64,000 bases of DNA from Mycolicibacterium sp. (GTDB lineage: Bacteria; Actinomycetota; Actinomycetes; Mycobacteriales; Mycobacteriaceae): NCBI GenBank assembly GCA_020637165.1, contig JACJWN010000003.1, forward strand, positions 558,001 to 622,000, in the 5' to 3' direction. A program made the position numbers and the translations under genes. The notes under the pieces are model-generated. The model did no database searches. It had not been told where the DNA came from and saw nothing but the letters and a program-made list of their open reading frames with translations. Shown here piece by piece: positions 11,112-30,874 of this stretch (its first letter is position 1; every line of letters begins with the position of its first letter).

Positions 11112-11582
11112 TCATGCGAGAGGCGGGGCGCCTGGTTCCTCACTCAATGGGTGGTCGAGGAAGCGCAGGCACACCCTGGTGCCCGGGGCGGTGGTGTCGA
11201 TGACAACGTCGTCGGCCAGGGTCCGCATCAGCGGAATGCCGCGGCCCCTGCTGCGTCGGCGCCGCAACGGGTCCACCTCGCGCCAGAGCCCATGGTCGGT
11301 GATCGTCACGGTCAGCGTGCCGCAACCCTCGTCACGGACCGCCGTCATCGCGACGGTGCCTGCGGGACCGCGCCGATAGGCGAACTCGGCGGCGTTGGCC
11401 AGGGCCTCGTTGACGGCGAGCACCACATCGCAGATCCGCGTCTCGCCGAAAGGGGTGTTACACCGGAGCCAGCGGGCGAACTCCTCGCGGATCCGGGCCG
11501 CGGTCAGCCCGTCGGCTGCCGCGTCGCTGCGGGTGAACCGGTCGGCATCGGTGTCGCGGCATGGCAGGCATGGTGTCGTCAT
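11112..11582 (-). CDS. RsbW-like anti-sigma factor / serine kinase (HATPase_c_2)
   Basis: A 156-residue GHKL-ATPase protein of the anti-sigma type. The N box is VNEALANAAEFA, the G1 box TDHGLWR and the G2 box RGRGIPLM. Such proteins sequester alternative sigma factors (SigF-like in mycobacteria) and phosphorylate a STAS-domain antagonist. A STAS gene is encoded immediately upstream on the same strand with a 44-nt gap, so the two probably form a partner-switching pair. No sigma factor gene is adjacent, and the sigma target cannot be read from the sequence. Confidence 0.85.
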   Translation of the reverse strand: MTTPCLPCRDTDADRFTRSDAAADGLTAARIREEFARWLRCNTPFGETRICDVVLAVNEALANAAEFAYRRGPAGTVAMTAVRDEGCGTLTVTITDHGLWREVDPLRRRRSRGRGIPLMRTLADDVVIDTTAPGTRVCLRFLDHPLSEEPGAPPLA

Positions 11583-11626
11583 CGCGGGCCAGGTCTACCC
11601 GCCCGGCGTGGGTTTCATGCACCGGA

Positions 11627-11998
11627 TCAGGCCCCGATGACGAGGCGGGCCCGCTCGACGCTCGGCTGCAATCCGAGCGCGTCGGCAAGACCCACCAGCG
11701 TCAGCGGCCGACTGGTGGCCGGCCCGTCCGCGACGACTGCGAACTTGAGCTTTCCATCGGCCCGGTCACTCGCGGCAACCAGCACACCCATCCCCGCCGA
11801 GGCCAGGAATTCCACGTCACTCAAGTCGATGATCATCGCCGACGGGTTCTTCAGAAACGCGCTGGCGATGGCCTCGGCCAACCGCGGTGAGGTCATCATG
11901 TCGAGAGTGCCGGAGACGGAGATCACCAGAGTCCGGCCGGTCCACTCCTCGCCGATCCCGCAACCGGCGGGGGCGGTGGCTGGAATTCGTGAATCCAC
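11627..11998 (-). CDS. STAS-domain anti-anti-sigma factor
   Basis: A 123-residue STAS protein. The core LVISVSGTLDMMTSPRLAEAI and IIDLSDVEFLASAGMGVLV match the anti-anti-sigma family, and a Ser in LASAGMG is at the usual phosphorylation position. In its unphosphorylated state it would bind the downstream RsbW-like kinase and free the sigma factor. A GTG start at 11998 follows a weak upstream purine stretch. It is the first gene of a two-gene minus-strand unit, oriented away from the plus-strand dioxygenase cluster. Confidence 0.85.
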   Translation of the reverse strand: MDSRIPATAPAGCGIGEEWTGRTLVISVSGTLDMMTSPRLAEAIASAFLKNPSAMIIDLSDVEFLASAGMGVLVAASDRADGKLKFAVVADGPATSRPLTLVGLADALGLQPSVERARLVIGA

Positions 11999-12467: not shown

Positions 12468-13115
12468 ATGGCCAACGACGGCGATACCGTCACTTCGGGC
12501 GTTGTCAGCAAGCTGGAGTGGTTGCGCGCCTCGGTGAGCGCACACCCGGAGGGCGCCGCCGACTCGACGTGGGCATGGATCGACGAGCTGTCCAAGCGGG
12601 CCAAGACCGACGCCGCCGGGGCTGACGCCGACCTCAACGAGCTGTTCCGGCTCGGTACAGCCCCGACCGACCTGCACGGCGCCACCGAGGGCATGCTGGT
12701 GATGACCACCACCAATGAGCGGTTTGACGCCGTGGTGCGGCTCATCACCTCGATGTGGATGCCCTGGCAGGGCAAGCGCTTCGACAAGGACGCCGCCAAG
12801 GGCGACAACCGCCTGACCAAAAGCACTGGACTGGTGGGCAAGCTGCTGTGGCCCCTGTACAAGATGACCGATCACGTCGACGGCAAGCTGGCCTTCGACT
12901 TCGAGACCTACGTGGAGGCCGGCAAGGAGGATCCCGACGTCGACGTGATGGTGATCGACTACGCCGAGATCGAGAAGAACCCCAAGCTCGTCATCCGCAA
13001 AATCCGCGACGAGCTCGTCGAACTGGTCTCAGGTGTCTACCTCGGCAAAATCCTCTACAACACCGGCTCGGGCTACTACAAGCTCGGTTACTTCGCCCTG
13101 CGCATCCCGCGCTAG
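12468..13115 (+). CDS. Unknown protein, first gene of the alpha-dioxygenase cluster
   Basis: A 215-residue protein I do not recognise. It has no signal peptide. The acidic N-terminal helix region is followed by a C-terminal part with GKLLWPLYKMTDHVDGKL, VDVMVIDYAEIEKNP, IRDELVELVSGVYLGKILY and GYYKLGYFALR, which reads like a small beta-rich ligand-binding fold; that is a guess from composition. The ATG at 12468 has GAGGAG 6-7 nt upstream, which fixes the start and removes an N-terminal extension. It ends 54 nt before the dioxygenase gene and is probably co-transcribed, so it could bind or deliver the lipid substrate or product. Confidence 0.75.
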   Translation: MANDGDTVTSGVVSKLEWLRASVSAHPEGAADSTWAWIDELSKRAKTDAAGADADLNELFRLGTAPTDLHGATEGMLVMTTTNERFDAVVRLITSMWMPWQGKRFDKDAAKGDNRLTKSTGLVGKLLWPLYKMTDHVDGKLAFDFETYVEAGKEDPDVDVMVIDYAEIEKNPKLVIRKIRDELVELVSGVYLGKILYNTGSGYYKLGYFALRIPR

Positions 13116-13169
13116 GCCTCCGTCGACCCCGCCAATCCACCCCGAGACCAGATAGGGAACCAGGAAACA

Positions 13170-14984
13170 ATGTCCGACCGTCAGTGGTATGAAAACCCAT
13201 CCCTGATCCTGCAAGTTCACGCGCTGGCCAGCCTGCGCGACCAGCTTCGTGAGGAGAACCTCTTCGAGGGCGAGGGCATCCGGCCCACGACCGACCTGGG
13301 CGAGCCGTCCGAGGAGGCCAAACGGGCCCGTACCCCGGACGGCACGTTCAACGACCTCTCCGACCCGTGGATGGGGGCGGCCGGAACCGGCTTCGGGCGC
13401 AATGCTCCGCCGTCGATGACGATCACGCACACCAAGAAGCTGCTCGATCCGGATCCCCGCCTGATCAGCCGCAAGCTGATGGCGCGCGACTCGTTCAAGC
13501 CGGCCGGGATCATCAACACCATCGCCGCGGCGTGGATCCAGTTCGAGAACCACAACTGGTTCTTCCACGGCAACGGCGAACCGGACAAGGTCATCGACAT
13601 CCCACTGGGCGACAACGACGACTTCCCGCAGAACCCGATGCAGATCCGTCGCACGATCCCGATGAATGGCAAGGAGATCGTCGACGGTCAGCCCGCCCCA
13701 GTGTTCGCCAACACCGAGACGCACTGGTGGGACGGCTCGCAGATCTACGGCACCGGCAAAGAGAAGCAGTCCGACGTCCGCACCTTCAAGGACGGCAAGA
13801 TCAAGGTCCAGGATGACGGCCGGCTGCCCAAGAGCAGCACCACCGAGGGCATCGACCTGACCGGCTTCGAAGAGAACTACTGGGCCGGGGTCGGCATTCT
13901 GCACACCCTGTTCGCCCGCGAGCACAATGCGGTCTGTGATGCCTTGAAGAAGGCGTACCCGAGCATGGACGACCAGCGTCTCTACGAGACTGCCGTGCTG
14001 GTGGTCTCGGCGCTGATCGCCAAGATTCACACCGTCGAATGGACGACCTGCATCCTGCGCCACCCGGCGCTGCAAATCGGTATGAACGCTAACTGGTACG
14101 GCGCCCTCGGCGAGACCTTCAGGGACCGGATCGGCCGCGTGGGCGACAGCGAGGCCCTCTCCGGCATCGTCGGCTCGCCTGTCGACCACCACTCCGCGCC
14201 GTTCTCGCTGACCGAGGAGTTCGTCACCGTCTACCGGCTGCACCCGCTGATCCCGGACGACTGGAACTGGTTCTCGCTGGAGTCCGGTGAGCACCTGCGC
14301 AACACCAACTTCACCGAGATCCAAGGCAAGTACACCCGCGACTTCATGCATAGCATGGAGATGAGCGACATTTGGTACTCGATGGCTCAGGCCAGCGCCG
14401 GTGCGGTCTGCCTGCACAACTACCCGGCGGCGCTGCGCAAGCTGGAGCGCATCGACGGTCAGGTCACCGACCTTGCGACGCTGGACCTGGTTCGTGACCG
14501 CGAACGTGGTGTGCCGCGGTACAACGATTTCCGCGAGATGCTGCATATGCCCCGTCGTAAGAGCATCGACGAGATCACTCCCAACAAGCAGTGGGCCAAG
14601 GAGATCAACGAGATCTACGGCGGCGACGTCGACCTGGTCGACACCCAGATCGGCATGCAGGCCGAGCAGCCGCCGAAGGGCTTCGGCTTCTCCGACACCG
14701 CGTTCCGCATCTTCATCCTGATGGCCTCGCGCCGCCTGAAGAGCGATCGTTTCTTCACCGACGATTTCCGGCCCGAGGTCTACACCCAGGTCGGCTTCGA
14801 CTGGGTGAACGGCACCTCGATGAAGGACGTCATCATGCGCCACTACCCGGAGTTGGAGCCGGCCCTGGAGGGTGTCGACCGGATCTTCGCGCCGTGGCCG
14901 AAGCTGGGCGCGCCGGTCCCGGGCAGGCCGAACCGTATCGTCCAGCTGGCCGATACCGTTCGCGCCTACATGCCCTGGGGCTGA
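13170..14984 (+). CDS. Alpha-dioxygenase / haem peroxidase-family fatty acid oxygenase
   Basis: A 604-residue animal-type haem peroxidase superfamily protein, most like plant fatty acid alpha-dioxygenases, which add O2 at C2 to give 2(R)-hydroperoxy acids. The haem-side motifs are present: distal His128 in FENHNWFFHG, FAREHNAVCD, and YRLH at 355-358, corresponding to the catalytic Tyr and proximal His of alpha-DOX and cyclooxygenase. LYETAVLVVSALIAKIHTVEW and SLTEEFVTVYRLHPLIPD follow plant alpha-DOX from memory. No signal peptide is visible. It is 7 nt upstream of a P450 gene, which recalls fungal Ppo enzymes where dioxygenase and P450 are fused. The substrate is inferred, not shown. Confidence 0.85.
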   Translation: MSDRQWYENPSLILQVHALASLRDQLREENLFEGEGIRPTTDLGEPSEEAKRARTPDGTFNDLSDPWMGAAGTGFGRNAPPSMTITHTKKLLDPDPRLISRKLMARDSFKPAGIINTIAAAWIQFENHNWFFHGNGEPDKVIDIPLGDNDDFPQNPMQIRRTIPMNGKEIVDGQPAPVFANTETHWWDGSQIYGTGKEKQSDVRTFKDGKIKVQDDGRLPKSSTTEGIDLTGFEENYWAGVGILHTLFAREHNAVCDALKKAYPSMDDQRLYETAVLVVSALIAKIHTVEWTTCILRHPALQIGMNANWYGALGETFRDRIGRVGDSEALSGIVGSPVDHHSAPFSLTEEFVTVYRLHPLIPDDWNWFSLESGEHLRNTNFTEIQGKYTRDFMHSMEMSDIWYSMAQASAGAVCLHNYPAALRKLERIDGQVTDLATLDLVRDRERGVPRYNDFREMLHMPRRKSIDEITPNKQWAKEINEIYGGDVDLVDTQIGMQAEQPPKGFGFSDTAFRIFILMASRRLKSDRFFTDDFRPEVYTQVGFDWVNGTSMKDVIMRHYPELEPALEGVDRIFAPWPKLGAPVPGRPNRIVQLADTVRAYMPWG

Positions 14985-14991
14985 ATCGACC

Positions 14992-16311
14992 GTGACTAAC
15001 GATTTCCCGCACGCATCGGCACTGGAAGGCATCCGGTTCACCGCCCGGATCGGCGTGCCCAACGTCCTCCAGGGATTGTTCAACAAGCGGGAGCTGCCGA
15101 CCAAGGTGGCGTCCGCCGTGGGTGCCGACTATCTGGGCTATCGGCTGGTCGAAGGTCTGGTCAAGACCTACGGCCCGGGTCCGTTCTATGTACGGATCGC
15201 CAAGGACGAGGCGCTTCTGGTTCATCACCCCGATGACCTGAAGTTCGTCCTCGGCGGCTCCCCGGATCCCTTCGCCTCCGACCCGGAGCCGAAGAAGAAC
15301 GGAATGTCCGCCTTCCAGCCGGACGCCCTGACCATCTCGCGGGGCGATCTCTGGGCACAGCGTCGGCAGTTCGCCGACGCTGTGCTCGAGCCCGGCAAGC
15401 CGCTGCACAGTATGGCCAAGTCGTTCCTGGTGGTGGCCGCCGAGACCGCCGCCGAACTCATCGGCAAGCCGGTGGACTACCACGTCATCGACGCCGCGTT
15501 CCAGCGGATGACGCGGCGCATCGTGCTGGGAGATCAGGCCGCTGATGACACCCGGCTGACCGAGGTCCTCACCGACCTGATGTCGCAGGGCAACAAGATG
15601 CCCGGCGAGCCCGGACCGCAGTACCCCGAGCTCATCGGCATGATCGAGGGCCATCTCGCCAAGGCCGAACCGGGCAGCCTCGCCGCGGAGATCGCCAAGG
15701 CCCCGGAGCCCCCGGGCGGTGCCGCCGGCCAGGTGATCCACTGGCTGATGGCCATGGGCGACACCCTCTCGGCGAACACGCTGCGTGCGCTGGCGGCCCT
15801 GGCCTCGCACCCCGAACAGCAGGCCGAGGTCCGGCGGGAGATCGCTGCGGCCGACATCGGGACTCCCAAGGGAGTGGCATCGCTGACCTACCTGGCCGGC
15901 TGCCTGCTGGAGGCCATGCGACTGTGGCCGACCACCGGGATGTTCGCTCGCGTGACGACCCGCGACGTCGAGTTCCCCAACGGGTCAGTGCTGCCGGAGG
16001 GCACCCAGGTGGTGATCTACAACGTGTTCAACCACCGCAACCGGAAGCTCATCCCCTACGCCGACCGGTTCTCGCCGGGCGAGTGGGTGACCGGAACCGC
16101 CAGTGAGGACTGGTCGTTCAACTTCATGAGCCACGGGCCGCAGGTCTGCCCGGGGTACGGGATGTCGGTATTCCTCGGCCAGGCGGTGATGGCGAACATG
16201 ATCAGCGCCGGGGAGCTGTCGCTCAGCGGAGCCCGGCTGGAAGCCGGCAAGCCGATGCCGCACAGTCTGGATCTGTTCGGGTTTCGGGTCAGCGTCACTC
16301 CGACAACGTGA
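14992..16311 (+). CDS. Cytochrome P450 partner of the alpha-dioxygenase
   Basis: A 439-residue P450. The haem-thiolate loop FMSHGPQVCPGYGM places the ligand at Cys386; ExxR is EAMR (307-310); the I-helix segment is LMAMGDTLSANTLR, unusual in having GDT rather than AGxDT. A variant I-helix is seen in P450s that rearrange hydroperoxides rather than activate O2, so it could act on the dioxygenase product; this is inference. The GTG start at 14992 is 7 nt after the dioxygenase stop. No ferredoxin or reductase gene is adjacent. Confidence 0.85.
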   Translation: MTNDFPHASALEGIRFTARIGVPNVLQGLFNKRELPTKVASAVGADYLGYRLVEGLVKTYGPGPFYVRIAKDEALLVHHPDDLKFVLGGSPDPFASDPEPKKNGMSAFQPDALTISRGDLWAQRRQFADAVLEPGKPLHSMAKSFLVVAAETAAELIGKPVDYHVIDAAFQRMTRRIVLGDQAADDTRLTEVLTDLMSQGNKMPGEPGPQYPELIGMIEGHLAKAEPGSLAAEIAKAPEPPGGAAGQVIHWLMAMGDTLSANTLRALAALASHPEQQAEVRREIAAADIGTPKGVASLTYLAGCLLEAMRLWPTTGMFARVTTRDVEFPNGSVLPEGTQVVIYNVFNHRNRKLIPYADRFSPGEWVTGTASEDWSFNFMSHGPQVCPGYGMSVFLGQAVMANMISAGELSLSGARLEAGKPMPHSLDLFGFRVSVTPTT

Positions 16312-16390: not shown

Positions 16391-18316
16391 ATGACGACCA
16401 CAACCGAGCACCTTCAGCGGGCACTCGACGGCCGCTGGCGCGATACCAAGAACATGATCCGCCAGAAGCTGTCCTTGGAGATATTCCGCCCGCACTTCAC
16501 CCCGACCAAGTCCGTCGCCCGGACCCGGGTGAACGAACAGCTGAAGATCATCGCCGCCGCCGGCGCGGCCGAGGACGCCTTCCAGAAGGGCCACGGTGGC
16601 ACCGGCGACGTCGGTGCGGCGGTCACCAAGATCGAGATGCTGGCCATGTCGGACTTGTCCCTGATGGTCAAGGCCGGGGTCTTGTGGGGGCTGTTCGGCG
16701 GGGCGGTCGAGAACCTGGGTACCGAACGCCACCACGAGACCTACGTCCGCCCGCTCATCACGCTGGACCTGCTGGGTTGCTTCGCGATGACCGAGACCGG
16801 CCACGGTAGCGACGTCCAGAATCTGGAGACCACCGCGATCTACGACCAGGACACCGAGGAGTTCGTCATCAACTCCCCGACCCCGGCCTCGCGCAAGGAC
16901 TATCTCGGCGGCGCCGCCGAGAGCGCCACGGTCGCAGCAGTGTTCGCCCAGCTCATCACACTGGGTCACAACCACGGGGTGCACTGCATCATGGTTCCGA
17001 TCCGGGATGCCGACGGCAACGACCTGCCCGGCGTGACCACCTCGGACTGCGACTACAAGGGCGGTCTGCCCGGCGTCGACAACGGCCGGATCATGTTCGA
17101 CCAGGTGCGCGTACCGCGGGAGAACCTGCTCAACAAGTTCGCCGACGTTGCTCCCGACGGCACCTACACATCGCCGATCGAGAACCCCAACCGGCGCTTC
17201 TTCACCATGCTCGGAACGCTGGTGCGGGGTCGTGTCACGGTCGGCGGAAGCGCCGCTCAGGCCGCGCGGGTGGCGCTTGATATCGCGGTCCGCTACGCCT
17301 TGCAGCGCACCCAGTTCAAGGCTCCCGGCGAGGACCGCGAGGTGCCGATCATGGACTATCTGGTGCACCAGCGACGGCTGCTGCCCTACATCGCACAGTC
17401 CTACGCGTTGCAGTTCGCCCAGAACCAGTTGGTCGCCACGCTGCACGATCAGGAGACGGCCGCGGTCCGCGACATGGAGGCCCAGCGGGAGCTCGAGGCG
17501 CATGCCGCCGGGTTGAAGGTGGTAAGCACCTGGCATGCCAGCGCGGCCATCCAGGAGGCTCGGGAGGCCTGTGGCGGCGCCGGGTATCTCGCCGAGAACC
17601 GGCTGGTCGAGCTGCGCGCCGACACCGACGTGTTCACCACCTTCGAGGGCGACAACCATGTCCTGCTGCAACTGGTGGCCAAACACCTCCTCACCAGCTA
17701 CAACGACGACATCAAGAGCATGAGCCCGTTCGAGTGGGTGCGGTTTGCCACCAACTACGCCGGCGGCCGGGTTTCCAGGCGCACCGCAGCCGGGCAGATC
17801 ATGCAGCGCATCCTCGACAACCGCGAGGACAACGATGTCGAAGGCAGCCTGTTCAACCGGGGCACCCAAGCCAAGATGTTCGAGGACCGCGAAGAGTACC
17901 TGCTGTCCTCCCTGGCCCGGCGGCTGCAGCGAAGGGCGAAGACGATGTCGCCGTTCGACGCCTTCAACTCCGTTCAGGACCACGTGATGCACCTGGCCCG
18001 GGCACACACCGACCGGGTGGTGCTCGAGGCCTTCATCGCCGGCGTGGAGTCCTGCGAGGACCCGGAGGCTCGGCGCATCCTGGAAATGGTGTGCGACCTG
18101 TACGCGCTGAGCGTAATCGAGGCGGACAAAGCCTTCTTCCTGGAACACCGGCTGCTCTCGACCGAGCGGGCGCGGGCGGTGAACAACGGGATCAACGAGC
18201 GTTGCCGCAATCTGCGCCCCTACGCGGAAATCCTGGTGGATGCGTTCGCCATCCCCGAGCAGCTGCGTTACGCGGAGATGCTGCATCCCGAGCTCATCCC
18301 GGCAGCCGGCTCGTGA
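16391..18316 (+). CDS. Acyl-CoA oxidase / dehydrogenase-family flavoprotein
   Basis: A 641-residue acyl-CoA oxidase-like enzyme catalysing alpha,beta-desaturation of acyl-CoA. Core motifs are LLGCFAMTETGHGSDVQNL (FAD/substrate binding), AREACGGAGYLAENRL and DTDVFTTFEGDNHVLL, with the presumed catalytic Glu419 in TFEGDN, and a long C-terminal helical domain (to residue 641) typical of ACOX rather than short ACADs. It starts 79 nt after the P450, and its stop overlaps the next gene (GTGA, 18313-18316). It probably degrades or processes fatty acyl chains in the same pathway. Confidence 0.9.
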   Translation: MTTTTEHLQRALDGRWRDTKNMIRQKLSLEIFRPHFTPTKSVARTRVNEQLKIIAAAGAAEDAFQKGHGGTGDVGAAVTKIEMLAMSDLSLMVKAGVLWGLFGGAVENLGTERHHETYVRPLITLDLLGCFAMTETGHGSDVQNLETTAIYDQDTEEFVINSPTPASRKDYLGGAAESATVAAVFAQLITLGHNHGVHCIMVPIRDADGNDLPGVTTSDCDYKGGLPGVDNGRIMFDQVRVPRENLLNKFADVAPDGTYTSPIENPNRRFFTMLGTLVRGRVTVGGSAAQAARVALDIAVRYALQRTQFKAPGEDREVPIMDYLVHQRRLLPYIAQSYALQFAQNQLVATLHDQETAAVRDMEAQRELEAHAAGLKVVSTWHASAAIQEAREACGGAGYLAENRLVELRADTDVFTTFEGDNHVLLQLVAKHLLTSYNDDIKSMSPFEWVRFATNYAGGRVSRRTAAGQIMQRILDNREDNDVEGSLFNRGTQAKMFEDREEYLLSSLARRLQRRAKTMSPFDAFNSVQDHVMHLARAHTDRVVLEAFIAGVESCEDPEARRILEMVCDLYALSVIEADKAFFLEHRLLSTERARAVNNGINERCRNLRPYAEILVDAFAIPEQLRYAEMLHPELIPAAGS

Positions 18317-19410
18317 ACCTCGTCGAGGAGATCATCGACTGGCTCTACACCGAGCAACTCCGGGTCGACGAGCAGTGGTCCTATCTGCTGCCGACCGGAT
18401 TCAGCTGGTGGGCAGACCAGTACGCGCAGACCGTCGAGATGGTCCGCGAGGAGAAGGGACCCGCCGGAGAGACCGGGTACCTGCTCTGTGTGCGAACCGA
18501 GTTGTTGCGGGACCTGGACCTGACCGATGCGGCGCTGGCCGAGATCAACGGGCTGCCCATGCGCTGCGCCTCATTGTCCGGGCCGGTCTACGACGCCGAG
18601 GCCCGCAGGCTGGATCTGTGGTCGCTGATCCGGCTGACCGACGACAACGGCGGCTGGATACGTTTCCTGGTCGCGGCCGCTGCCATCACCCAACTCGCCG
18701 AGGCCCGGGTCCTGGCCCCGGTACTAGCCGACGCCGTCGGCGCCGCCCCGGCGACCAGCGACCACCCGGAAAGCGGGCGTCGGTCAGCCCCCGACGAGAT
18801 GGCTTTCGCCGCAGCGGATTTCGCCAACTCCGGTGATCAACCGTGCGCCTGGAGCGAGGCGGAGTTTCGCGAGACCGTCGCCGAGTACATGAACCGGCCG
18901 CCCGCGCGGGCGGGCACCGCCGGCCCGACAGGCTTCACCGTCGAGTTCCCGTTCGGGAAACAGAACTCGCTGTGCCGGGTCTCAGGGGATCAGCCGCACC
19001 CGCTGTACGGCAACGGCCTGCTGGTGCTGCAGCGTTTCCCCGTCCCGGTCGAATCCGAGACCGAGGGCATCAAACTGGCGCTGTCACTCAACGCCGCCGA
19101 CCTGACCCACCGGATGACCGGCTACGGCCTGGGCAGCTACGTCTACGCCGACGGGACGATCCACTTCACCGCGTTCATACCCAACGCCCTTCACAAGCCC
19201 GGGCTGCTGGCCAACCTGTACTTCTCCTGCGCTGCCCGCGCACAGGCGATGGAGTCGAGGTTCGCCGAGGGGGACTGGGACCCCGACGCCTACTCCCTGG
19301 ATCCCGACGTCCTCGCCCGCCGCCGCCGGCAGCGGCAGGCGACCGCACCGGCCGTCGAGCGCCCCATGCGGGGCTGCCCGATGGCACGCGCCCAATCAGG
19401 AGGTGGCTGA
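18313..19410 (+). CDS. Unknown conserved protein downstream of the acyl-CoA oxidase
   Basis: A 365-residue protein that I do not recognise. The GTG start overlaps the acyl-CoA oxidase stop by 4 nt, which selects this start over the much longer open frame. It contains the run YLLPTGFSWWADQYAQTVEM near the N-terminus, a mixed middle with an acidic, low-complexity linker (about 150-170), and a C-terminal segment with FPFGKQNSLC, MTGYGLGSYV and FIPNALHKPGLLANLYFSCA. No signal peptide or clear membrane segment is visible. Translational coupling suggests a role with the oxidase. The end overlaps the ribosome-binding site of the SDR gene. Confidence 0.7.
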   Translation: MNLVEEIIDWLYTEQLRVDEQWSYLLPTGFSWWADQYAQTVEMVREEKGPAGETGYLLCVRTELLRDLDLTDAALAEINGLPMRCASLSGPVYDAEARRLDLWSLIRLTDDNGGWIRFLVAAAAITQLAEARVLAPVLADAVGAAPATSDHPESGRRSAPDEMAFAAADFANSGDQPCAWSEAEFRETVAEYMNRPPARAGTAGPTGFTVEFPFGKQNSLCRVSGDQPHPLYGNGLLVLQRFPVPVESETEGIKLALSLNAADLTHRMTGYGLGSYVYADGTIHFTAFIPNALHKPGLLANLYFSCAARAQAMESRFAEGDWDPDAYSLDPDVLARRRRQRQATAPAVERPMRGCPMARAQSGGG

Positions 19411-19411
19411 C

Positions 19412-20257
19412 GTGCCCAAACCCATCGATCTCAAGGGATCCGCGGTCGCGATCACCGGAGCCGCCCGGGGAATCGGTTATGCGACCGCGCGGGCTTTCGT
19501 CGCCGAGGGCGCGCGAGTGTACATCGGCGACCTTGACGCCGATCTGGCCAAGGCCTCCGCGAAGGAGCTCGGCTGCACCGGCGCCGGAGTCGACGTGCGG
19601 TCGCGGGAGTCCTTCGCCGACTTCCTGGCCGGCATCGACTCGCCGCTGGAGGTCCTGGTGAACAACGCCGGCATCATGCCCGCCGGCCGTTTCGTCGACG
19701 AGCCGGACGCGGTCACCGACGCGATCGTGGACGTCAACCTCAACGGCGTGCTGCGTGGGACCAAGCTGGTGCTGCCGGGGATGCTCGAACGCGGATCGGG
19801 ACACATCGTCAACGTGGCCTCCTATCTCGGCGAGGTCCCAGCCGCCGGGCTGGCTACCTACTGCGCCAGCAAGCACGCCGTCGTCGGCTTCAGCGAGGCG
19901 TTGCGCGACGAACTGGCCGATACCGGGGTCACGATCACCACTGTGCTGCCCTCGGCGGTGCGCACCGATCTGGTTTCCGGGGTCAAGCTCGGCGGGATGC
20001 TGCCGACCGTCGATCCCGAGGACATCGCCAAGGCCATCGTCGCGACCTGCAAGGGCCGACCCGCGGTGGTCGCGGTACCGGGCTGGATGCGCAGCTACGA
20101 GGCCGTCGCGGCCCTGGTGCCCGACAAGATGGTAGGAGCCATCCGCGGACGGCTGACCCGCGACCGGGTGCTGCGCTCCCTCGACACGGCCGCACGAGCG
20201 GGCTACGACGAGCGAATCCGGCGCGACGCCGAGTCCGGGCAGCCGAGGAAATCCTGA
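19412..20257 (+). CDS. Short-chain dehydrogenase/reductase
   Basis: A classical SDR of 281 residues. The cofactor loop TGAARGIG (15-22), NNAG motif, and the catalytic triad Ser137, Tyr150 and Lys154 (YCASK) are intact. Asp in IGDLDAD at the end of beta-2 favours NAD(H). The GTG at 19412 is chosen because AGGAGG (19398-19403) lies 8 nt upstream; a GTG at 19403 would sit inside that site. It probably oxidises or reduces a hydroxy/keto group on the lipid product of the neighbouring enzymes, which is an inference from position. Confidence 0.88.
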   Translation: MPKPIDLKGSAVAITGAARGIGYATARAFVAEGARVYIGDLDADLAKASAKELGCTGAGVDVRSRESFADFLAGIDSPLEVLVNNAGIMPAGRFVDEPDAVTDAIVDVNLNGVLRGTKLVLPGMLERGSGHIVNVASYLGEVPAAGLATYCASKHAVVGFSEALRDELADTGVTITTVLPSAVRTDLVSGVKLGGMLPTVDPEDIAKAIVATCKGRPAVVAVPGWMRSYEAVAALVPDKMVGAIRGRLTRDRVLRSLDTAARAGYDERIRRDAESGQPRKS

Positions 20258-21684: not shown

Positions 21685-21943
21685 GAGCCCTCCCCCTAGG
21701 CACCTCCGTCTACCTCTACAGATTCACACAACTCGCCGAGCGCACAGTGCGATTTGGGGAATTGCTGGCGTGTTACACGCGCTGAACGGCGTTCAGGCGG
21801 CTCCTCTAGCAGCCAGCTCCGCCGGCTGCGCACATCTACACGGCCAGGAAGGAAAACCGCTTCGCTTCCTTAGCGGACTCGCACCGGGGTGAACGGATCT
21901 CGGACTGCCGGAAGAGCGCCGCTGAGCACGCGCTCTGACCTGG

Positions 21944-22015
21944 TGGTCCCGGCTGGGATCGAACCAGCGACCTTCCGCGTGTGAAGCGGACGCTCTCCCA
22001 CTGAGCCACGGGACC
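21944..22015 (-). tRNA. tRNA-Val (anticodon CAC)
   Basis: The 72-nt minus-strand sequence folds with a 7-bp acceptor (GGTCCCG/CGGGACC), D stem GCTC/GAGC, anticodon stem TCCGC/GCGGA with loop TTCACAC (anticodon CAC), T stem GCTGG/CCAGC and discriminator A. It reads GTG valine codons. It is divergent from the other three tRNAs. Confidence 0.95.
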
Positions 22016-22169
22016 GGATGGGCGCCACCACGGGGTGAAGCCGCGGTGGGAACCCTAGCACGAGGCTGCTTTTGCCTTGACAACGCGCCTTCCGGCAGCG
22101 GATTTGTTTGCGTCGAGACGGTCGGCTAATGTCGTCTCTCGCAGCAGGCGACGACCTCGCCTGAGGCTT

Positions 22170-22242
22170 GCGGATGTAGCGCAGTTGGTAGCGCATCACC
22201 TTGCCAAGGTGAGGGTCGCGGGTTCGAATCCCGTCATCCGCT
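22170..22242 (+). tRNA. tRNA-Gly (anticodon GCC)
   Basis: 73 nt with acceptor GCGGATG/CATCCGC, anticodon stem TCACC/GGTGA and loop TTGCCAA (anticodon GCC), T stem GCGGG/CCCGT with one G-T pair, discriminator T. It is first of a plus-strand trio with Cys and Val. Confidence 0.96.
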
Positions 22243-22271
22243 CGAAGGTGCAACTGGCATCAGACCCCAAC

Positions 22272-22342
22272 GGTGGAGTGGCCGAGTGGTGAGGCAACGG
22301 CCTGCAAAGCCGTGCACACGGGTTCGATTCCCGTCTCCACCT
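22272..22342 (+). tRNA. tRNA-Cys (anticodon GCA)
   Basis: 71 nt with acceptor GGTGGAG/CTCCACC, anticodon stem ACGGC/GCCGT and loop CTGCAAA (anticodon GCA), T arm CGGGTTCGATTCCCG, discriminator T, the usual identity base for Cys. It lies 29 nt after tRNA-Gly. Confidence 0.96.
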
Positions 22343-22356
22343 CCGATTTGCCGCCC

Positions 22357-22428
22357 GCGCGATTAGCTCAGCGGGAGAGCGCTTCCCTGACACGGAAGAG
22401 GTCACTGGTTCAATCCCAGTATCGCGCA
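22357..22428 (+). tRNA. tRNA-Val (anticodon GAC), integration target of the phage-like element
   Basis: 72 nt: acceptor GCGCGAT/ATCGCGC, D stem GCTC/GAGC, anticodon stem CTTCC/GGAAG with loop CTGACAC (anticodon GAC), T stem ACTGG/CCAGT, discriminator A. The last 24 bases belong to a 25-bp direct repeat that recurs at 32615-32639, so the element recombined into the 3' half and left the tRNA intact. At this end the bases after the discriminator read CCA. Confidence 0.97.
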
Positions 22429-22429
22429 C
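22405..22429 (+). repeat. attL core (25-bp direct repeat)
   Basis: Starts CTGGTTCAATCCC and ends ATCGCGCAC; identical to 32615-32639 in the same orientation. It covers the T arm, acceptor 3' strand and discriminator of tRNA-Val(GAC). Confidence 0.93.
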
Positions 22430-22476
22430 CAGCATCACCGCAGGTCAGGACAGGTTTTACTCCCCCAGACCGGGGC

Positions 22477-23464: not shown

Positions 23465-24901
23465 CTAGGCGGTGGTGGGCACGTCCAACATGGCGAACGC
23501 CGAATCAATCAGGGAGTCGGCACCGTAGCGGCCCCACAGCCATGCACCGCGCTGGCCGGTGGGGCGGCGGTTGGCCCCGACGATGTGGGGAATCAGCTCG
23601 ATCTGGGAGCCCACGCGCATCGTGACCACGTACTGCGAGAAGTCGCCGTAAATCGCGAGGTAATTTGCTTCAGTCGCGGCGGCGTTGACGGCGGAGTCCA
23701 TCACCGAATTCTCGTAGACGTTGCGGCCGAGCAGGGTCGGCGGGCTGGTGTGCAGGCCGGGGAATAATAGGCTCCCGTTGGCCGATTCGAACTGCCGGGC
23801 GGCGTTGATGGTGGGTAGCGCCGCCATCCACGATGCGTTCGGCTGCCAACGCGGCGCCAGGGCGTTCTGGACCTTGTAGAAGTCGCTGGCGGCCAGTGCC
23901 TCGGAGCCGTCGCCGGTGACCACCGAGCCGGCGCCGGTCAGCGCGGTCACGATGCCGGTCGGCTGGCCACTTCCGCTGCCGGTGGTTAGGGCCGTGGCCA
24001 GCAGTTGCTCGGCGGCGTCACCCAGCACGGTGCCGAGCTGGGTGACCAGCTGGTTGGCGTCACCTTCCAGCTCCACCGAGAACGGCGTGAAACAGCTCAT
24101 TTTGCAGGCGGGGATCTGCGGTGCGGCCAGGGTCGGGGACGCGTCGGCGGCCTCGGCGGCCTCGGCCAACCACTCCGCCGTCGTGCCGGCGGAGGTCACC
24201 CCCGACCACACGTCAGAGGTGGTCGGGATGACGCGGGCGATGTTCAACAACGGCACGGTGGATCCGCCGTTGGTCAGCCGGATGGTCAAGTCGGCCTCCA
24301 GCGGCACCAGATAGCCGCCGGCGTTGTCGGTCAGGGACATGGCCCGTTCGGACTGGAGAGCGGCCACGGAGCGCCAGGCGGCGGCCTCCGGTTCGGTCCA
24401 ATTAAGGTGCCCGTGGTCGGGGTCGACGGCGCGTTTGGCGAACGCGGCCCGGTAGTGCGCCGAGCCGGTTTCGGTGGCCCAGCGGGCCGCCCAGGAGCGG
24501 GAGCGGGCCGGGCCGTGCTCGACCAGCGACTCGACCGTTTCGGCGGCCGTCGCGGGCAGGGTGCCGGCGGAGACGTGGCGCTCCAGGGTCCGCAGCGCGG
24601 TATCGCGGTGCTGGTCGCGGGGGTCGCGGTCGAGGTCGGCGGGCCGTTCGGCGCCGGGCAGGGGGCGGCCCTCACCCTCGGTCTTGTACCGCCCGGATCG
24701 CACGCCGTCGAGCAGGTCGGCGCGGGTGGCGTCGCGGGCCTGGGACTCGGCGCGGATCTGCTCCACCCGGGCGGTGATCGCGGCGAAGCGTTCGGCGTCC
24801 GGGCCGGTGAGGTCGCCGTCGGTGCTGTCGAGGATCTCGGCGGCGGCGGCGCGGGCCTGGGTGATGGTCATGCGGTCGATGGGGAGTTCGTTACGGGACA
24901 T
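23465..24901 (-). CDS. HK97-fold phage major capsid protein
   Basis: A 478-residue capsid protein of the HK97 type, homologous to Rv1576c/Rv2650c of phiRv1/phiRv2. The N-terminal scaffold-like domain (about 1-140, with Arg/Glu-rich helices) would be removed by the protease encoded immediately upstream. The shell domain includes AMSLTDNAGGYLVPLEADL, TTAEWLAEAAEA, SGSGQPTGIVTAL and YLAIYGDFSQYVV, which are classic for the family. The ATG at 24901 is preferred over a TTG 12 nt upstream. No portal or terminase gene accompanies it. Confidence 0.92.
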   Translation of the reverse strand: MSRNELPIDRMTITQARAAAAEILDSTDGDLTGPDAERFAAITARVEQIRAESQARDATRADLLDGVRSGRYKTEGEGRPLPGAERPADLDRDPRDQHRDTALRTLERHVSAGTLPATAAETVESLVEHGPARSRSWAARWATETGSAHYRAAFAKRAVDPDHGHLNWTEPEAAAWRSVAALQSERAMSLTDNAGGYLVPLEADLTIRLTNGGSTVPLLNIARVIPTTSDVWSGVTSAGTTAEWLAEAAEAADASPTLAAPQIPACKMSCFTPFSVELEGDANQLVTQLGTVLGDAAEQLLATALTTGSGSGQPTGIVTALTGAGSVVTGDGSEALAASDFYKVQNALAPRWQPNASWMAALPTINAARQFESANGSLLFPGLHTSPPTLLGRNVYENSVMDSAVNAAATEANYLAIYGDFSQYVVTMRVGSQIELIPHIVGANRRPTGQRGAWLWGRYGADSLIDSAFAMLDVPTTA

Positions 24902-24906
24902 CGTGG

Positions 24907-25431
24907 TTACCAATCCATGAGGGTCAGCCGCGCCTGGGCGACCGACCGGGGAATGTGCAGGGACTGCGAGCGAACGCCGGCGATGGCCGCGCCCGCATAG
25001 GCGGGCAGACCGACCAAAGAGACCTCCATCAGCGCCGCCTCGTCGCGCACGGTCACGTCACCCTCGGCGTGCTCGCGGATCCCGCGAAAGCCGATGGAGA
25101 ACGCGTCCACGGTCCCGGAGCGGACCAGCTCCAGGGCGTCGTCGCCATCTCTGGTCGCGGCAATCTCGAACGCGACATGCAGGCCGTCGGACGCCTCGCG
25201 CAACTCGACCGCGCGGCCGATGGGCAGCCGGCGGGTCTGATGGGAGTCGAATAGCCGGACCTTGCTGCCACGCTCGGCGATGCTGCGGGCGAACGCTCCC
25301 GGAGCGAACCTTTCCCGGTATGGGCGGCCGCCATCGGACACCTCGGCGACGACGCCGTAGGGAACGCCGATGCCGTGAACGGTGCGGCCGGAGCCGGGAG
25401 TCAGGTCGGCGGAGCGGAACAGGATGGTCAT
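24907..25431 (-). CDS. HK97-type prohead protease
   Basis: A 174-residue peptidase U35-family protein that matures the capsid. It starts MTILFRSADLTPGSGRT at 25431, and the upstream open-frame extension is rejected because it lacks family similarity. The catalytic segment is FDSHQTRRLPIGR (His) with VDAFSIGFRG (Ser) and the downstream MEVSLVGLPAY strand. It ends 5 nt before the capsid ATG, so the two are one transcriptional unit. Confidence 0.92.
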   Translation of the reverse strand: MTILFRSADLTPGSGRTVHGIGVPYGVVAEVSDGGRPYRERFAPGAFARSIAERGSKVRLFDSHQTRRLPIGRAVELREASDGLHVAFEIAATRDGDDALELVRSGTVDAFSIGFRGIREHAEGDVTVRDEAALMEVSLVGLPAYAGAAIAGVRSQSLHIPRSVAQARLTLMDW

Positions 25432-25570
25432 AGCGGGCACCTTGAATGGACGGGCGTATTCGCTTGCGTCGCATGGCGACCCGCGTGGCCGGGGTGGCAT
25501 CCCCTGATGCTTCCGGCGCCGGCGTGGATACCGAGCTCTGGGACAAGCGTACAACAATGCGGCGGCGACA

Positions 25571-25846
25571 TCACGGCTGGATCGGGCCGACGTCGGTGGC
25601 CGGGTCAATGCCGTCCCGGGTGGCGTGCCACGCCAGCCAGTCCCTCGTCGTGTGCACGATCTGGCGGCCGTCGGCGTCGAGGTACACGTCGGTGGCGTCG
25701 CCGCGCAACGTCACGGCCATCCCGTCGAGGGCGGCGGCGGCCGCCTCCGGGTGACAACCCAGCTGGCCGGCCACCACGTCGACCGCCAGCCGCAGCAGCA
25801 ACTGGCGTTCGTCGTCGGTCAGCGGCCGGTTGATCGGGGTGCTCAC
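25571..25846 (-). CDS. Element protein of unknown function (91 aa)
   Basis: A GTG start at 25846 overlaps the stop of the preceding gene (GTGA, 25843-25846). The 91-residue product begins VSTPINRPLTDDERQLLLR and contains LDADGRQIVHTTRDWLAWHA. It may correspond in position to the small head-packaging gene of phiRv2, but I see no terminase signature. It ends 139 bp upstream of the protease ATG. Confidence 0.6.
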   Translation of the reverse strand: MSTPINRPLTDDERQLLLRLAVDVVAGQLGCHPEAAAAALDGMAVTLRGDATDVYLDADGRQIVHTTRDWLAWHATRDGIDPATDVGPIQP

Positions 25847-26133
25847 TGGCCGGTCCAATCGCCGGGCACGGTGTCGGGCGTCTCGTCGGCCACGAAGTCG
25901 GCGGCCAGCGGGGCGCCGGCGGCCAGGTCGGCGGCGGCCACCAGCGCCAGCCGGCGGCCGCCCCATCGGAACTCCAGGATCCCGTCGTCGCCAGGGTGCA
26001 TCCGGATGCCGTGGGCGTCGTTGGCCTGGCACCACGCGATGCGCTCGGCGCGGTCGGCCGGGTCCAGGGCGGCGACGGCGTGGGTCAGCAGCAGGCCGAT
26101 GCGGTCGTGGAGCGGGTCATCGTTGGCGGTCAT
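25843..26133 (-). CDS. Element protein of unknown function (96 aa)
   Basis: The 96-residue product MTANDDPLHDRIGLLLTH shows an N-terminal helix, then AERIAWCQANDAHGI and LEFRWGGRRLALVAAADLA, and an acidic end. No family was recognised. It is the first gene of the left transcription unit (this gene, 91-aa gene, protease, capsid), following a 164-bp gap that probably holds the unit's promoter. Confidence 0.6.
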   Translation of the reverse strand: MTANDDPLHDRIGLLLTHAVAALDPADRAERIAWCQANDAHGIRMHPGDDGILEFRWGGRRLALVAAADLAAGAPLAADFVADETPDTVPGDWTGQ

Positions 26134-26281
26134 CGGTGGGTGTCCTTTCGGGTGAGTGATTGCGTGACTTTTCGTTTTGGGTGCGGGAGGGATATGGCTG
26201 GGCCTCCGCGGGGTCAGGGTTCTGGCTAATTTCTCACCGGCACCCCTACCCCTCTACCTGCGGTTATGTGATTGCCAGCTA

Positions 26282-26304
26282 ACCGTGAAGCTGCCGTTCA
26301 CGGT
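26282..26304 (-). terminator. Inverted repeat at the end of the early operon
   Basis: ACCGTGAA (26282-26289) and TTCACGGT (26297-26304) form a perfect 8-bp stem with a 7-nt loop, overlapping the stop codon of the zinc-ribbon gene. It could end the integrase-to-zinc-ribbon transcript or act as an operator for the following late unit. No U tract. Confidence 0.45.
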
Positions 26305-26498
26305 GCCTCGGCCTCGGTCTCGGCCTCGTCGGTCTCCTCGGCGTCGCCGAGCTGCTCGGCCGGGGTCGGGCGTGGCCGGCGTCGGGGCGGTGGGGTGGTT
26401 CCGTGGATCCGGCCGGCACCGCAGTCGCAGCAGCGGGGCGAGCCGGGTTCGCGGTGCCGGCGGTGGCAGGTGACGCACAACGGCCTTGCGACGGTCAT
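26298..26498 (-). CDS. Small zinc-ribbon protein of the element
   Basis: A 66-residue protein starting MTVARPLCVTCHRRHREPG, with CVTC and CCDCG pairs forming a Cys4 zinc ribbon, followed by a Pro/Arg-rich then Glu-rich tail. The ATG at 26498 overlaps the stop of the WhiB-like gene (26495-26498). A nucleic-acid-binding role is likely but unproven. It is the last gene of the long overlapping early operon. Confidence 0.65.
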   Translation of the reverse strand: MTVARPLCVTCHRRHREPGSPRCCDCGAGRIHGTTPPPRRRPRPTPAEQLGDAEETDEAETEAEAP

Positions 26499-26779
26499 GC
26501 TGCGGTCCTCCGTCCGCGTCGGCCGTCGTTGACCTGTCCAGCGATGACGCCGAGGGGCCGCTGGCGTGGCTCCAGGCTGGCGATCCATGCGCCGCAGGGT
26601 GTCAGTGCCGGGCAGCTCTCACAGAGCGCCAGGGCGGCGCGGTGGCGGTAGCGCACGTCCTCGGGGTCCTCACCGGACTCGGGCGGGTCGAACGCGGCCC
26701 ACAGGTTGCGGCACCGGGCGCCGTCGAGTTTCGGTGTGGCGGCGGCCAGGGCGTCGAGGAGTTGATCGAGGGTCGTCAC
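26495..26779 (-). CDS. WhiB-family iron-sulfur regulator of the element
   Basis: A 94-residue WhiB-like protein. Four cysteines (Cys23, Cys53, Cys56, Cys62; spacing CX2CX5C for the last three) match the [4Fe-4S] ligand set, and LGVIAGQ followed by a basic RRGRR tail matches the turn and DNA-binding end. Phage WhiB proteins such as that of TM4 can repress host whiB genes and cause superinfection effects; a similar role is inferred. The GTG start at 26779 is 37 nt after the preceding stop, and its end overlaps the zinc-ribbon gene. Confidence 0.82.
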   Translation of the reverse strand: MTTLDQLLDALAAATPKLDGARCRNLWAAFDPPESGEDPEDVRYRHRAALALCESCPALTPCGAWIASLEPRQRPLGVIAGQVNDGRRGRRTAA

Positions 26780-26816
26780 GTCAGTTCGCCTGTCTCCCGT
26801 GCGGTGTAGGCCACGG

Positions 26817-26957
26817 CTACCGCCCTTCCAGGTGGTCGGCGATGCGGCCGAGTTGGTGCAGGATGCCTTCGACGGCCTGCATGGTGCGGTACTTGATGAC
26901 GGTGTCGTTGACGTATCCGGCGTCGATGAGGTCCTCGATGTCTTTTTGGTTGGTCAC
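26817..26957 (-). CDS. Small element protein (46 aa)
   Basis: GTG 26957 to TAG 26817 encodes VTNQKDIEDLIDAGYVND followed by a helical segment ending LGRIADHLEGR. Its start overlaps the stop of the upstream gene (GTGA, 26954-26957). The product is entirely helical by composition, with no recognised family. It is probably genuine because of the overlap chain in this operon. Confidence 0.6.
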   Translation of the reverse strand: MTNQKDIEDLIDAGYVNDTVIKYRTMQAVEGILHQLGRIADHLEGR

Positions 26958-30759: not shown

Positions 30760-30874
30760 CGGGGTGTCCTTCGGGCATCGAAAGTGATGCCGTCAGACCC
30801 GGGGTGCCGGAGACGAGCAGGAATTACGTTACATGACGCGGCGACAATGCCGCTGTGACACAGCTACGCGGAAC

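Follow-up and report, generated by a model that had tools for sequence, protein, structure and literature searches.

A mycobacterial alpha-dioxygenase in a shared locus with a cytochrome P450: a possible two-haem oxylipin pathway starting at C2

Introduction

Animals make prostanoids, and fungi oxylipins, through cascades of a haem dioxygenase and a cytochrome P450. A locus of Mycolicibacterium sp. raises the question of whether bacteria possess a comparable pairing, and at which carbon of the fatty acid it would begin. The locus lies in the window, the 64,000-nucleotide stretch of contig JACJWN010000003.1 that was analysed here, and places a putative alpha-dioxygenase (aDOX) next to a P450. 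Bacterial aDOX have already been published and are treated, in the portions of that work available to us, as stand-alone aldehyde-forming biocatalysts; a full-text search of the open-licence PMC literature returned no description of aDOX-P450 or aDOX-catalase-related pairings. A conserved bacterial module of this kind suggests that mycobacteria and their relatives make a defined oxygenated lipid.

Gene Organization

The three open reading frames proposed in an initial sequence-only reading are all present, and the ORF coordinates bear out its spacing for the central pair, the GTG start of the P450 lying 7 nt past the aDOX stop codon (Table 1). A scan of the locus for promoters and terminators gave no informative signal.

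Table 1. The module and its downstream neighbours, in window coordinates.
Product	Length (aa)	Position	Strand	Remarks
P0001	215	ORF 12468-13112, stop to 13115	+	first gene of module; no Pfam or NCBIfam match
aDOX (alpha-dioxygenase)	604	13170..14984	+	PF03098; plant aDOX are the nearest solved relatives
Cytochrome P450	439	14992..16311	+	PF00067, 83 bits; GTG start
Acyl-CoA oxidase/dehydrogenase-type protein	641	16391..18316	+	PF22924, PF01756, PF02770; possible accessory
365-aa protein	365	18313..19410	+	no Pfam match; 4-nt overlap with the acyl-CoA oxidase-type gene
Short-chain dehydrogenase		19403..20257	+	PF00106; possible accessory

The Alpha-Dioxygenase

The 604-residue protein is, by homology, a fatty-acid alpha-dioxygenase, as had been claimed from its residue pattern; H128 and Y355-R-L-H358 are indeed found at these positions. 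It matches PF03098 with E 1.8e-99, and among solved structures the enzymes from rice (4kvj, E 3.2e-116) and Arabidopsis (4hhr, E 3.5e-115) rank best, with lactoperoxidase (7.3e-19) and COX-2 (6.7e-17) behind them. Compared with the protein of Calothrix sp. PCC 6303 that fits CalDOX, 287 of 573 aligned residues are identical (50%), and H128, Y355/H358, H287, R522 and T292 align to CalDOX H131, Y358/H361, H290, R529 and T295. When residue roles and channel residues are taken from the accessible part of the CalDOX report (PMC8720084), both haem ligands and eight of the nine channel residues named there are identical in the window aDOX, as are the catalytic Tyr, His290 and Trp294; the lone changed channel residue is CalDOX T304, which is Leu in the window enzyme. 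The alignment thereby predicts H128 (distal) and H358 as haem ligands, Y355 as the tyrosyl-radical residue, H287 and R522 as the carboxylate-binding pair, and T292 as the threonine close to C2. A lacto- or haloperoxidase identity was rejected on the structure ranking together with the CalDOX alignment, the nearest solved relatives being plant aDOX and not generic peroxidases devoid of Tyr-x-x-His.

The window aDOX resembles rice OsaDOX, the Arabidopsis enzyme, CalDOX and LepDOX in fold family, both haem histidines, catalytic Tyr and carboxylate-binding His and Arg, and differs from them in the one channel residue and in the genetic tie of its gene to a P450 and to P0001. That the homologue is a mere peroxidase, or no longer oxygenates C2, is very improbable: we met no activity data for any actinobacterial member, and the T304 exchange could be read in the same direction, but Y355, H128, H358, H287, T292 and R522 are invariant in all 21 aDOX rows of alignment A3, and half of the aligned residues are shared with a proven aDOX.

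Linkage of the Three Genes

A P450 of the same family accompanies aDOX in 56 of 61 related loci and a P0001 homologue does so in 39, with gene order and strand shuffled among the loci; the figure of 61 counts loci and not genomes, L038/L060, L007/L014 and L025/L061 each being two loci of one genome. Loci with aDOX and P450 include one of Nocardioides sp. Root240 (L028), and a plasmid of Streptomyces sp. NBC_00069 also bears the pair (L189). The suggested neighbourhood survey found the trio's members together well beyond the window, which had been named as a point on which the oxylipin-like reading could fail. Across 298 genomes of the order, a close P450 occurs in five of the six genomes with a close aDOX versus 3 of the 292 others (P 1.8e-8; 5e-7 once the own genome is left out), where close means more than 380 bits for the P450 and more than 900 bits for aDOX, cut-offs that were chosen after the scores were seen. 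In genomes G187 and G242 the P450 is present but a search at E 1e-100 found no aDOX. After exclusion of short sequences, 39 of 40 P0001, 59 of 62 aDOX and 53 of 57 P450 sequences were aligned, including the window copy (L001), and of these, 34 P450, 25 P0001 and 21 aDOX sequences entered alignments A1, A2 and A3, respectively.

P0001, the third protein of the earlier reading, is borne out as a member of the trio. The window protein has no Pfam match at 0.1, its relatives gave chance-level ones only, and a search for solved relatives brought up none that is convincing. Its W.GK.F and tail pattern led us to consider a kinship with GXWXG/DUF4334, which was rejected at hhalign probabilities of just 0.7% and 3.3%. 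The residues invariant in all 19 rows of alignment A5 include W100, G102, K103, N114, Y165, D181, E182, G189, L192 and G193.

The P450 and Its I-Helix

Canonical P450 monooxygenases carry AGx[D/E]T in the I-helix, ExxR, and a haem Cys loop with R or H two residues ahead of the Cys (C-2), and the CYP152 peroxygenases have Arg-Pro instead of the acid-alcohol pair. The window P450 reads A254-M-G-D-T258 in the I-helix, E307-A-M-R310, and GPQVCPG around the haem ligand C386; measured against the canonical pattern, Asp-Thr, ExxR and Cys are present, Met replaces Gly, and Gln384 occupies C-2. The sequence-only reading had taken the I-helix as MGDT in place of AGxDT and had seen in this a possible fit to a hydroperoxide-rearranging role. 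This was a misreading: AMGDT retains the pair D257-T258, as the alignment of 53 family members also attests, and only Gly has become Met, so the I-helix argument fails in the window protein. Support for the proposed role comes from two other observations described below: the sister clade, in which the pair reads Ala-Asn, and the catalase-related proteins that accompany some aDOX elsewhere.

Within the 53 aligned members the Gly-site residue is Met in 49 and Leu in four, and never Gly, and Gln stands at C-2 in 52, HxC being confined to L044. The acid-alcohol pair is less uniform, with Asp in 47 members and Thr in 49, the variants being Asp-Thr, Gly-Thr or Ala-Asn, which rules out membership in CYP152. 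Neither oddity recurs in 14 other P450s of the own genome (0/14 with Met or Leu at the Gly site, 0/14 with Gln at C-2), a comparison that does not include L066 and in which L072 and L078 stand for a single protein.

The main rival explanation, rather unlikely in our estimation, makes this P450 an ordinary redox-partner-dependent monooxygenase downstream of aDOX, acting on the Cn-1 aldehyde (to the acid, or by deformylation to the alkane) or on the product chain. The intact Asp257-Thr258 and ExxR are compatible with it, as is the profile search, in which, among the best 60 of 171 matches, ordinary monooxygenases lead the solved structures, the best of these aligning mainly over the C-terminal half. 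The aDOX product is moreover described, in the part of PMC9305512 available, as decaying spontaneously to the aldehyde. Against the monooxygenase stand the Met or Leu for Gly in all 53 P450s, the five loci that keep aDOX although their P450 has naturally lost Asp-Thr, and the neighbouring genes: no aldehyde dehydrogenase was recognized by eye in the partial sequences of the 30 neighbour clusters listed, and the P450-type 3Fe-4S ferredoxin motif occurs in 0/61 module loci versus 2/16 loci of other own-genome P450s. These last counts refer to a specific motif (a looser regex gave noise), the control-locus flanks were shorter than those of most module loci, and the missing motif is weak evidence because a ferredoxin can be encoded away from the module.

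A Sister Clade with Ala-Asn

Five P450s (L004, L005, L009, L010 and L027), all from metagenome bins, two named Mycobacterium and three 'uncultured actinobacterium', read A-L-K-A-N where the window P450 has A-M-G-D-T. In a tree that omitted 9 of the 53 P450s (near-duplicates and L046), kept 5 of 11 extra rows and added L203, the four of full length group together as sister (support 100/100) to the seven-row clade containing the window protein. A dN/dS of 0.13-0.20 among these four indicates purifying selection on the P450s with Ala-Asn, and their aDOX, 85-90% identical to that of the window, are just as conserved. Fifteen fixed differences separate the two P450 clades, of which six fall at I-helix residues 248-258 and four at 315-323; the chance of 6/15 within a given 11-residue stretch is 2e-7, or 9e-5 after multiplication by 429 windows, the stretch having been chosen post hoc. 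Nature thus supplies P450 pairs that differ at just those I-helix positions whose part in cleaving the O-O bond is under debate, and what determines O2 activation versus hydroperoxide isomerization is therefore directly testable.

Comparison with Fungal DOX-CYP Enzymes

The fungal DOX-CYP enzymes (LDS, EAS and AOS, of Ppo type) likewise pair a haem dioxygenase of the peroxidase-COX superfamily with a P450, but they do so in one polypeptide; in the window the two are separate genes, and the 57 extracted P450 ORFs measure at most 461 aa. In the available part of PMC13049297, Table 3 gives the I-helix motifs of fungal CYP partners that convert hydroperoxides as AMxxNQxQ (10R-EAS), GMxxNQxQ (5,8-LDS), SMxxNQxQ (6,8-LDS) and ASxxTQxQ (8R-AOS), so that the helix ends in [N/T/I]-Q-x-Q in LDS, EAS and 8-AOS. 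Among the eight enzymes tabulated there, Met is at the Gly site in three, as in the window P450, and another residue in five; the axial site holds Asn or Thr in six (Thr, again as in the window, in two) and Ile or Val in two. As far as these tabulated motifs go, only their first part is common to the A-M-G-D-T-L-S-A of the window P450, which is without the QxQ tail, whereas the sister-clade A-L-K-A-N-[Q/E]-A-A shares A-x-x-x-N-Q and misses the last Q. The haem loop also differs, the LDS CYP keeping HxC according to the same partial source and the window family having QxC in 52/53.

The module had been described as a split version of the fungal Ppo pair. Among solved relatives, a comparison outside which the Ppo sequences lie, the window dioxygenase is nearest to the C2-oxidizing alpha type. 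The module is therefore probably no divided Ppo enzyme, and the resemblance would be one of analogous pairing at most.

Alternative Partners of aDOX

A P450 is not the only haem protein found with aDOX. In an order-wide sample of 28 loci, drawn from 29 aDOX matches with G159 left out at a contig start, aDOX is fused to a catalase-related domain in seven and adjoins a gene for it in three; nine have neither a P450 nor a catalase-related partner, and two have a catalase-like gene only in the flank. Ten further loci of a phylum sample include six with neither partner and two that are cut, and aDOX thus often stands without either. On the aDOX tree, loci with a P450 partner fall at three distinct points and those with a catalase partner at two, with a minimum of five changes, when L140 and L148 (catalase-like gene in the flank, not adjacent) are scored as having none and L054 is left unscored.

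In L102 the domain that precedes aDOX in the fusion has as its best solved match the catalase-related haem protein 3e4w (E 7.5e-13), which we take to be MAP-2744c of M. avium subsp. paratuberculosis and which has no counterpart in the window module; for the C-terminal domain of L087 no solved match was found. A bacterial parallel exists in the cyanobacterium Nostoc, where a catalase-related lyase cleaves the hydroperoxide made by a 10S-DOX (Brash et al. 2014, cited in the accessible part of PMC13049297). As described there, it too combines a COX-superfamily dioxygenase with a second haem protein, of the kind that partners some other actinobacterial aDOX; the window, unlike it, has a P450 as the partner and an aDOX as the dioxygenase.

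Proposed Pathway

By homology, aDOX would abstract hydrogen from fatty acid C2 through its tyrosyl radical and add O2 to give the (R)-2-hydroperoxy fatty acid. The P450 might then use this hydroperoxide directly as both substrate and oxidant, splitting O-O at the haem thiolate and rearranging it, and would thereby keep it, without ferredoxin, from decaying spontaneously to an aldehyde one carbon shorter. The product may be guessed to be a dihydroxy acid, formed by heterolysis and intramolecular hydroxylation, or otherwise a lyase or dehydration product. An oxylipin-type module of three genes, in which aDOX makes 2-hydroperoxy acids that the P450 converts without a redox partner, is the reading we prefer, at even odds. 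The Ala-Asn clade, the Met or Leu at the Gly site, the Gln at C-2, the lack of a ferredoxin motif in the module loci, the fungal motifs with Met, Asn or Thr and the catalase-related partners speak for it. Against it count the Asp-Thr pair kept by the window P450 and most of its family, the missing QxQ tail, the fungal enzymes that deviate at the Gly or axial site, the QxC haem loop, the monooxygenases among the profile matches, the aDOX loci with neither partner, and genomes G187 and G242. P0001, linked through gene context, may act on, bind or deliver the same lipid.

A broader proposal, to which we give somewhat less than an even chance, is that Actinobacteria run a C2-starting two-haem oxylipin pathway, in which 2-hydroperoxy acids from aDOX are rearranged by a dedicated self-sufficient P450 or, interchangeably, by a catalase-related haem protein, and in which two sister clades of the P450 family represent the two mechanistic states, one with Asp-Thr and one with Ala-Asn. 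Fungi and animals produce oxygenated fatty-acid signals with two-haem systems, of which the module may be the unfused bacterial equivalent; if the proposal holds, the P450 family would be an independent or an ancestral counterpart of those dioxygenase-CYP cascades.

Downstream Genes and Distribution

In part of the species, the acyl-CoA oxidase-type enzyme and the short-chain dehydrogenase could process the product of this pathway further. The same genes invite a catabolic explanation, improbable in our view, by which aDOX shortens acids resistant to beta-oxidation (3-methyl-branched ones, for example), the P450 does no more than remove hydroperoxide or aldehyde, and the two enzymes take the product on. 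In the window and some relatives the module is followed by the acyl-CoA oxidase-type gene, which in L037 and L059 even separates aDOX from the P450, and distant P0001 relatives stand before short-chain dehydrogenases in other genomes. However, a strong homologue (at least 49%) of the acyl-CoA oxidase-type gene is present in only 18 of the 61 aDOX loci, although some contigs stop short of its site, and there is no pointer to such a substrate. A homologue of the 365-aa protein occurs in 8 of the 61. aDOX is also present on 19 plasmid records, four of which were inspected.

The dioxygenase and its gene cluster

The three open reading frames proposed in a sequence-only reading, encoding a 215-residue protein (P0001), an alpha-dioxygenase (aDOX) and a cytochrome P450, are all present as described (see table). 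The alpha-dioxygenase identity claimed there is borne out by comparison with solved sequences, among which the rice (E 3.2e-116) and Arabidopsis (E 3.5e-115) enzymes are the closest, with lactoperoxidase (E 7.3e-19) and COX-2 (E 6.7e-17) far behind; PF03098 is the only Pfam match. The closest characterised relative met, a Calothrix sp. PCC 6303 protein with 287 of 573 aligned residues identical, was taken, from organism and residue numbering, as the CalDOX of PMC8720084 (excerpts). Both CalDOX haem histidines (H131, H361) are kept in the window enzyme, as are the residues aligned with Tyr358, His290 and Trp294; of the nine channel residues named in the excerpts, T295, A310, F354, F519, F522, I523, A526 and R529 are kept, and T304, the sole change, is Leu. 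The catalytic residues are invariant across a 21-row aDOX alignment, and by homology the enzyme very likely catalyses C2-dioxygenation. It is known in kind, since the aDOX-bearing phyla listed in the excerpts of PMC8720084 include Actinobacteria.

In its own genome (94% complete) this aDOX is the single match to the animal-haem-peroxidase family, and there are 17 P450 matches. The genome is taken as mycobacterial from the names of the loci most similar to that of the window. Just 5' of the module lie two divergent genes (11112-11998, minus strand) that by eye resemble an anti-sigma kinase and a STAS antagonist. In L006, L008 and L053 the module also has relatives of the STAS-type gene nearby.

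Coordinates of the module, its downstream genes (window) and the fusions of aDOX to a catalase-related haem domain (listed as aDOX-catalase fusions; within their loci)
Feature	Position	Strand	Remark
P0001, 215 aa	12468-13115	+	gene 1 of module
aDOX, 604 aa	13170-14984	+	starts 54 nt after P0001
P450, 439 aa	14992-16311	+	GTG start; 7 nt after aDOX
Acyl-CoA oxidase-type gene	16391-18316	+	3' of P450
365-aa protein, no Pfam match	18313-19410	+	4-nt overlap with acyl-CoA oxidase-type gene
Short-chain dehydrogenase	19403-20257	+	same strand as module
aDOX-catalase fusion, L087	1420-4335
aDOX-catalase fusion, L091	1438-4347
aDOX-catalase fusion, L102	367-3297
aDOX-catalase fusion, L103	235-3174
aDOX-catalase fusion, L104	241-3252
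aDOX-catalase fusion, L191	4879-7707
aDOX-catalase fusion, L209

Conservation of the module

A GTDB genome scan with one protein query, which detects close relatives only, yielded 61 related loci. Surveying these neighbourhoods, as the first reading had advised, found the trio together elsewhere: a P450 homologue stands beside aDOX in 56 loci and a P0001 homologue in 39, and in three of the five loci lacking the P450 the contig ends within aDOX. Named hosts include Mycobacterium, Mycolicibacterium, Nocardioides, Aeromicrobium, Gordonia, Williamsia, Smaragdicoccus, Antrihabitans, Skermania, Amycolatopsis and Thermoleophilaceae bins. The P450 lies on the strand opposite aDOX in L028, L058 and L062, and the gene order is P0001-P450-aDOX in L034, L035, L038 and L060, aDOX-P450-P0001 in L040, and P0001-aDOX-acyl-CoA oxidase-P450 in L037 and L059; in all, 18 of the 61 loci have an acyl-CoA oxidase-type gene together with the module. 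That the genes are reshuffled yet retained together argues for one function. Each part of the module is known in itself, but the way they are combined is unusual and conserved, and no description of this combination was found in the open-licence full-text literature searched.

In Amycolatopsis saalfeldensis (L046, L085, L156) an in-frame stop breaks the aDOX frame, with the P450 and P0001 frames open. L028, L029, L034, L037, L047, L059 and L060 share a gene of ~390-440 aa on the opposite strand upstream of aDOX, by eye a PucR-type regulator.

The role of the P450

A bold interpretation takes the module as an unfused bacterial counterpart of the fungal and animal dioxygenase-P450 cascades, starting at C2; that its P450 is hydroperoxide-driven we rate at even chances. 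The I-helix string MGDT, from which such a role had first been proposed, is there as the tail of A-M-G-D-T, but Asp257 and Thr258 are present; ExxR lies at 307-310 and the haem ligand is Cys386. At the Gly site of AGxDT all 53 aligned family members carry Met (49) or Leu (4), and position C-2 of the haem Cys is Gln in 52; the 14 other parsed P450s of the own genome have Gly (13) or Ala (one) at the former site and His or Arg at C-2 throughout. The more sober alternative, an aDOX accompanied by an ordinary monooxygenase P450, is favoured by retention of the I-helix Asp in 47 of 53 members and by ordinary monooxygenases among the best profile hits (best 60 of 171), in which mainly the C-terminal half aligned. 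A P450-type 3Fe-4S ferredoxin motif occurs at none of the 61 module loci and at two of 16 other own-genome P450 loci; as a sign that the P450 works without a redox partner this counts for little, since the ferredoxin gene may lie elsewhere in the genome.

The six members missing Asp carry Gly-Thr (L046, L049) or, in four cases, Ala-Asn, and these latter provide the most telling result on the P450's role. The P450s of L004, L009, L010 and L027 read A-L-K-A-N-[Q/E]-A-A, as does truncated L005; all five loci are from metagenome bins, two named Mycobacterium. In the tree, L004, L009, L010 and L027 group together (100/100) as the sister clade of the window's seven-row clade, and 15 fixed differences separate the two, six in I-helix 248-258 and four at 315-323, which we take by P450 convention to be substrate-recognition site 5; outgroups agree with the Ala-Asn clade at two of the 15. 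With dN/dS of 0.13-0.20 among the four full sequences, the genes look working, and the aDOX of the five loci is 85-90% identical to that of the window. Exchange of the O2-activating pair with aDOX kept would be easier to understand if O2 activation were not the job of this P450. Distant family members whose flanks were read and lack aDOX show FAF-DAAG.

Among fungal hydroperoxide-converting CYP partners, Table 3 of PMC13049297 (excerpts) includes AMxxNQxQ, GMxxNQxQ, SMxxNQxQ and ASxxTQxQ, and the excerpted text states that the axial Asn may help and can be dispensable. The fit of the module family to these motifs is partial: in that table Met at the I-helix site is absent from five of eight enzymes and the axial site is Ile or Val in two of eight, and in the haem loop the CYP of the fungal fusion enzyme LDS has HxC and the module family QxC.

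Exchange of haem partners

In an order-level sample of 298 genomes, 26 carry 29 aDOX genes, 28 of which were examined. Seven have a P450 of the module family, five close and two distant (G125, G138); both distant P450s have FALGDT in the I-helix, and in G125 the gene is split over two frames. Another seven aDOX carry a fused catalase-related domain, which lies at the C-terminus in G273, G226 and G109 and at the N-terminus in G202, G146, G292 and G198. A catalase-related gene is adjacent in three (G262, G222, G088) and in the flank only in two (G284, G170), as well as in the flanks of P450-bearing G125 and G138; nine loci have neither partner. The fused domain matched Pfam catalase weakly in four of five proteins scanned (E 6.5e-5 to 4.7e-7); against the PDB, the L102 domain matched 3e4w best (E 7.5e-13) and also catalases, and the L087 domain gave no match. 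Ten new loci came from a phylum-level sample (346 genomes, 12 of them holding 13 aDOX loci): one with P450, one catalase fusion, six with neither and two cut. Further afield, Rhizobium phaseoli carries an N-terminal catalase-related/aDOX fusion on a plasmid, Streptomyces sp. NBC_00069 combines a module-family P450, an alpha/beta hydrolase and aDOX, and the Calothrix and Qingshengfaniella records showed neither partner. In an aDOX tree of 58 rows, whose deep branches are weakly supported, the P450 partner appears at three places and the catalase partner at two, requiring a minimum of 5 changes.

Coral catalase-related proteins are hydroperoxide lyases and allene oxide synthases (PMC5617202, excerpts), and a catalase-related lyase partners Nostoc 10S-DOX (PMC13049297, excerpts). 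That two unrelated kinds of haem protein, both known elsewhere as fatty-acid hydroperoxide converters, recur as partners of aDOX is the second main argument for a hydroperoxide-driven P450, limited because many aDOX have neither partner.

Fusions from the window's genus have the catalase-related domain at the C-terminus, those from other actinobacteria at the N-terminus; L142 encodes aDOX and the catalase-related protein separately, in genes that overlap by 4 nt. A gene near the distant aDOX of L143, L145 and L146 looks, by eye, like a wax-ester synthase/diacylglycerol acyltransferase.

P0001 and its relatives

P0001 has no Pfam or NCBIfam match, and the searches gave no convincing solved relative. 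Weak relatives lie 3' of distant aDOX genes in L134, L135, L143 and L145 (E 2e-7 to 2e-6). In genomes G207, G281 and G052 (L129, L130, L131) relatives are 71-74% identical to the nearest module homologue; in G207 and G281 they are unlinked to aDOX, and in G052 no aDOX was found. More distant relatives stand 5' of short-chain dehydrogenases. As a guess, a general lipid-handling role would fit.

The G207, G281 and G052 relatives adjoin genes read by eye as hsaACDB (steroid breakdown). A second kind of P0001 module, with no aDOX in view, is seen in L170, L172, L173, L174 and L176, where a distant P0001-like gene adjoins a short-chain dehydrogenase gene, which comes directly after it in the last four; L172 also has a P450.

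Elsewhere in the window, an integrated element (23465-32463) lies near four tRNA genes (21941-22431); the five proteins searched matched a phage integrase, a primase-polymerase, an HNH endonuclease, a head maturation protease and a major head protein, and they could belong to a capsid-carrying phage satellite or to a remnant.
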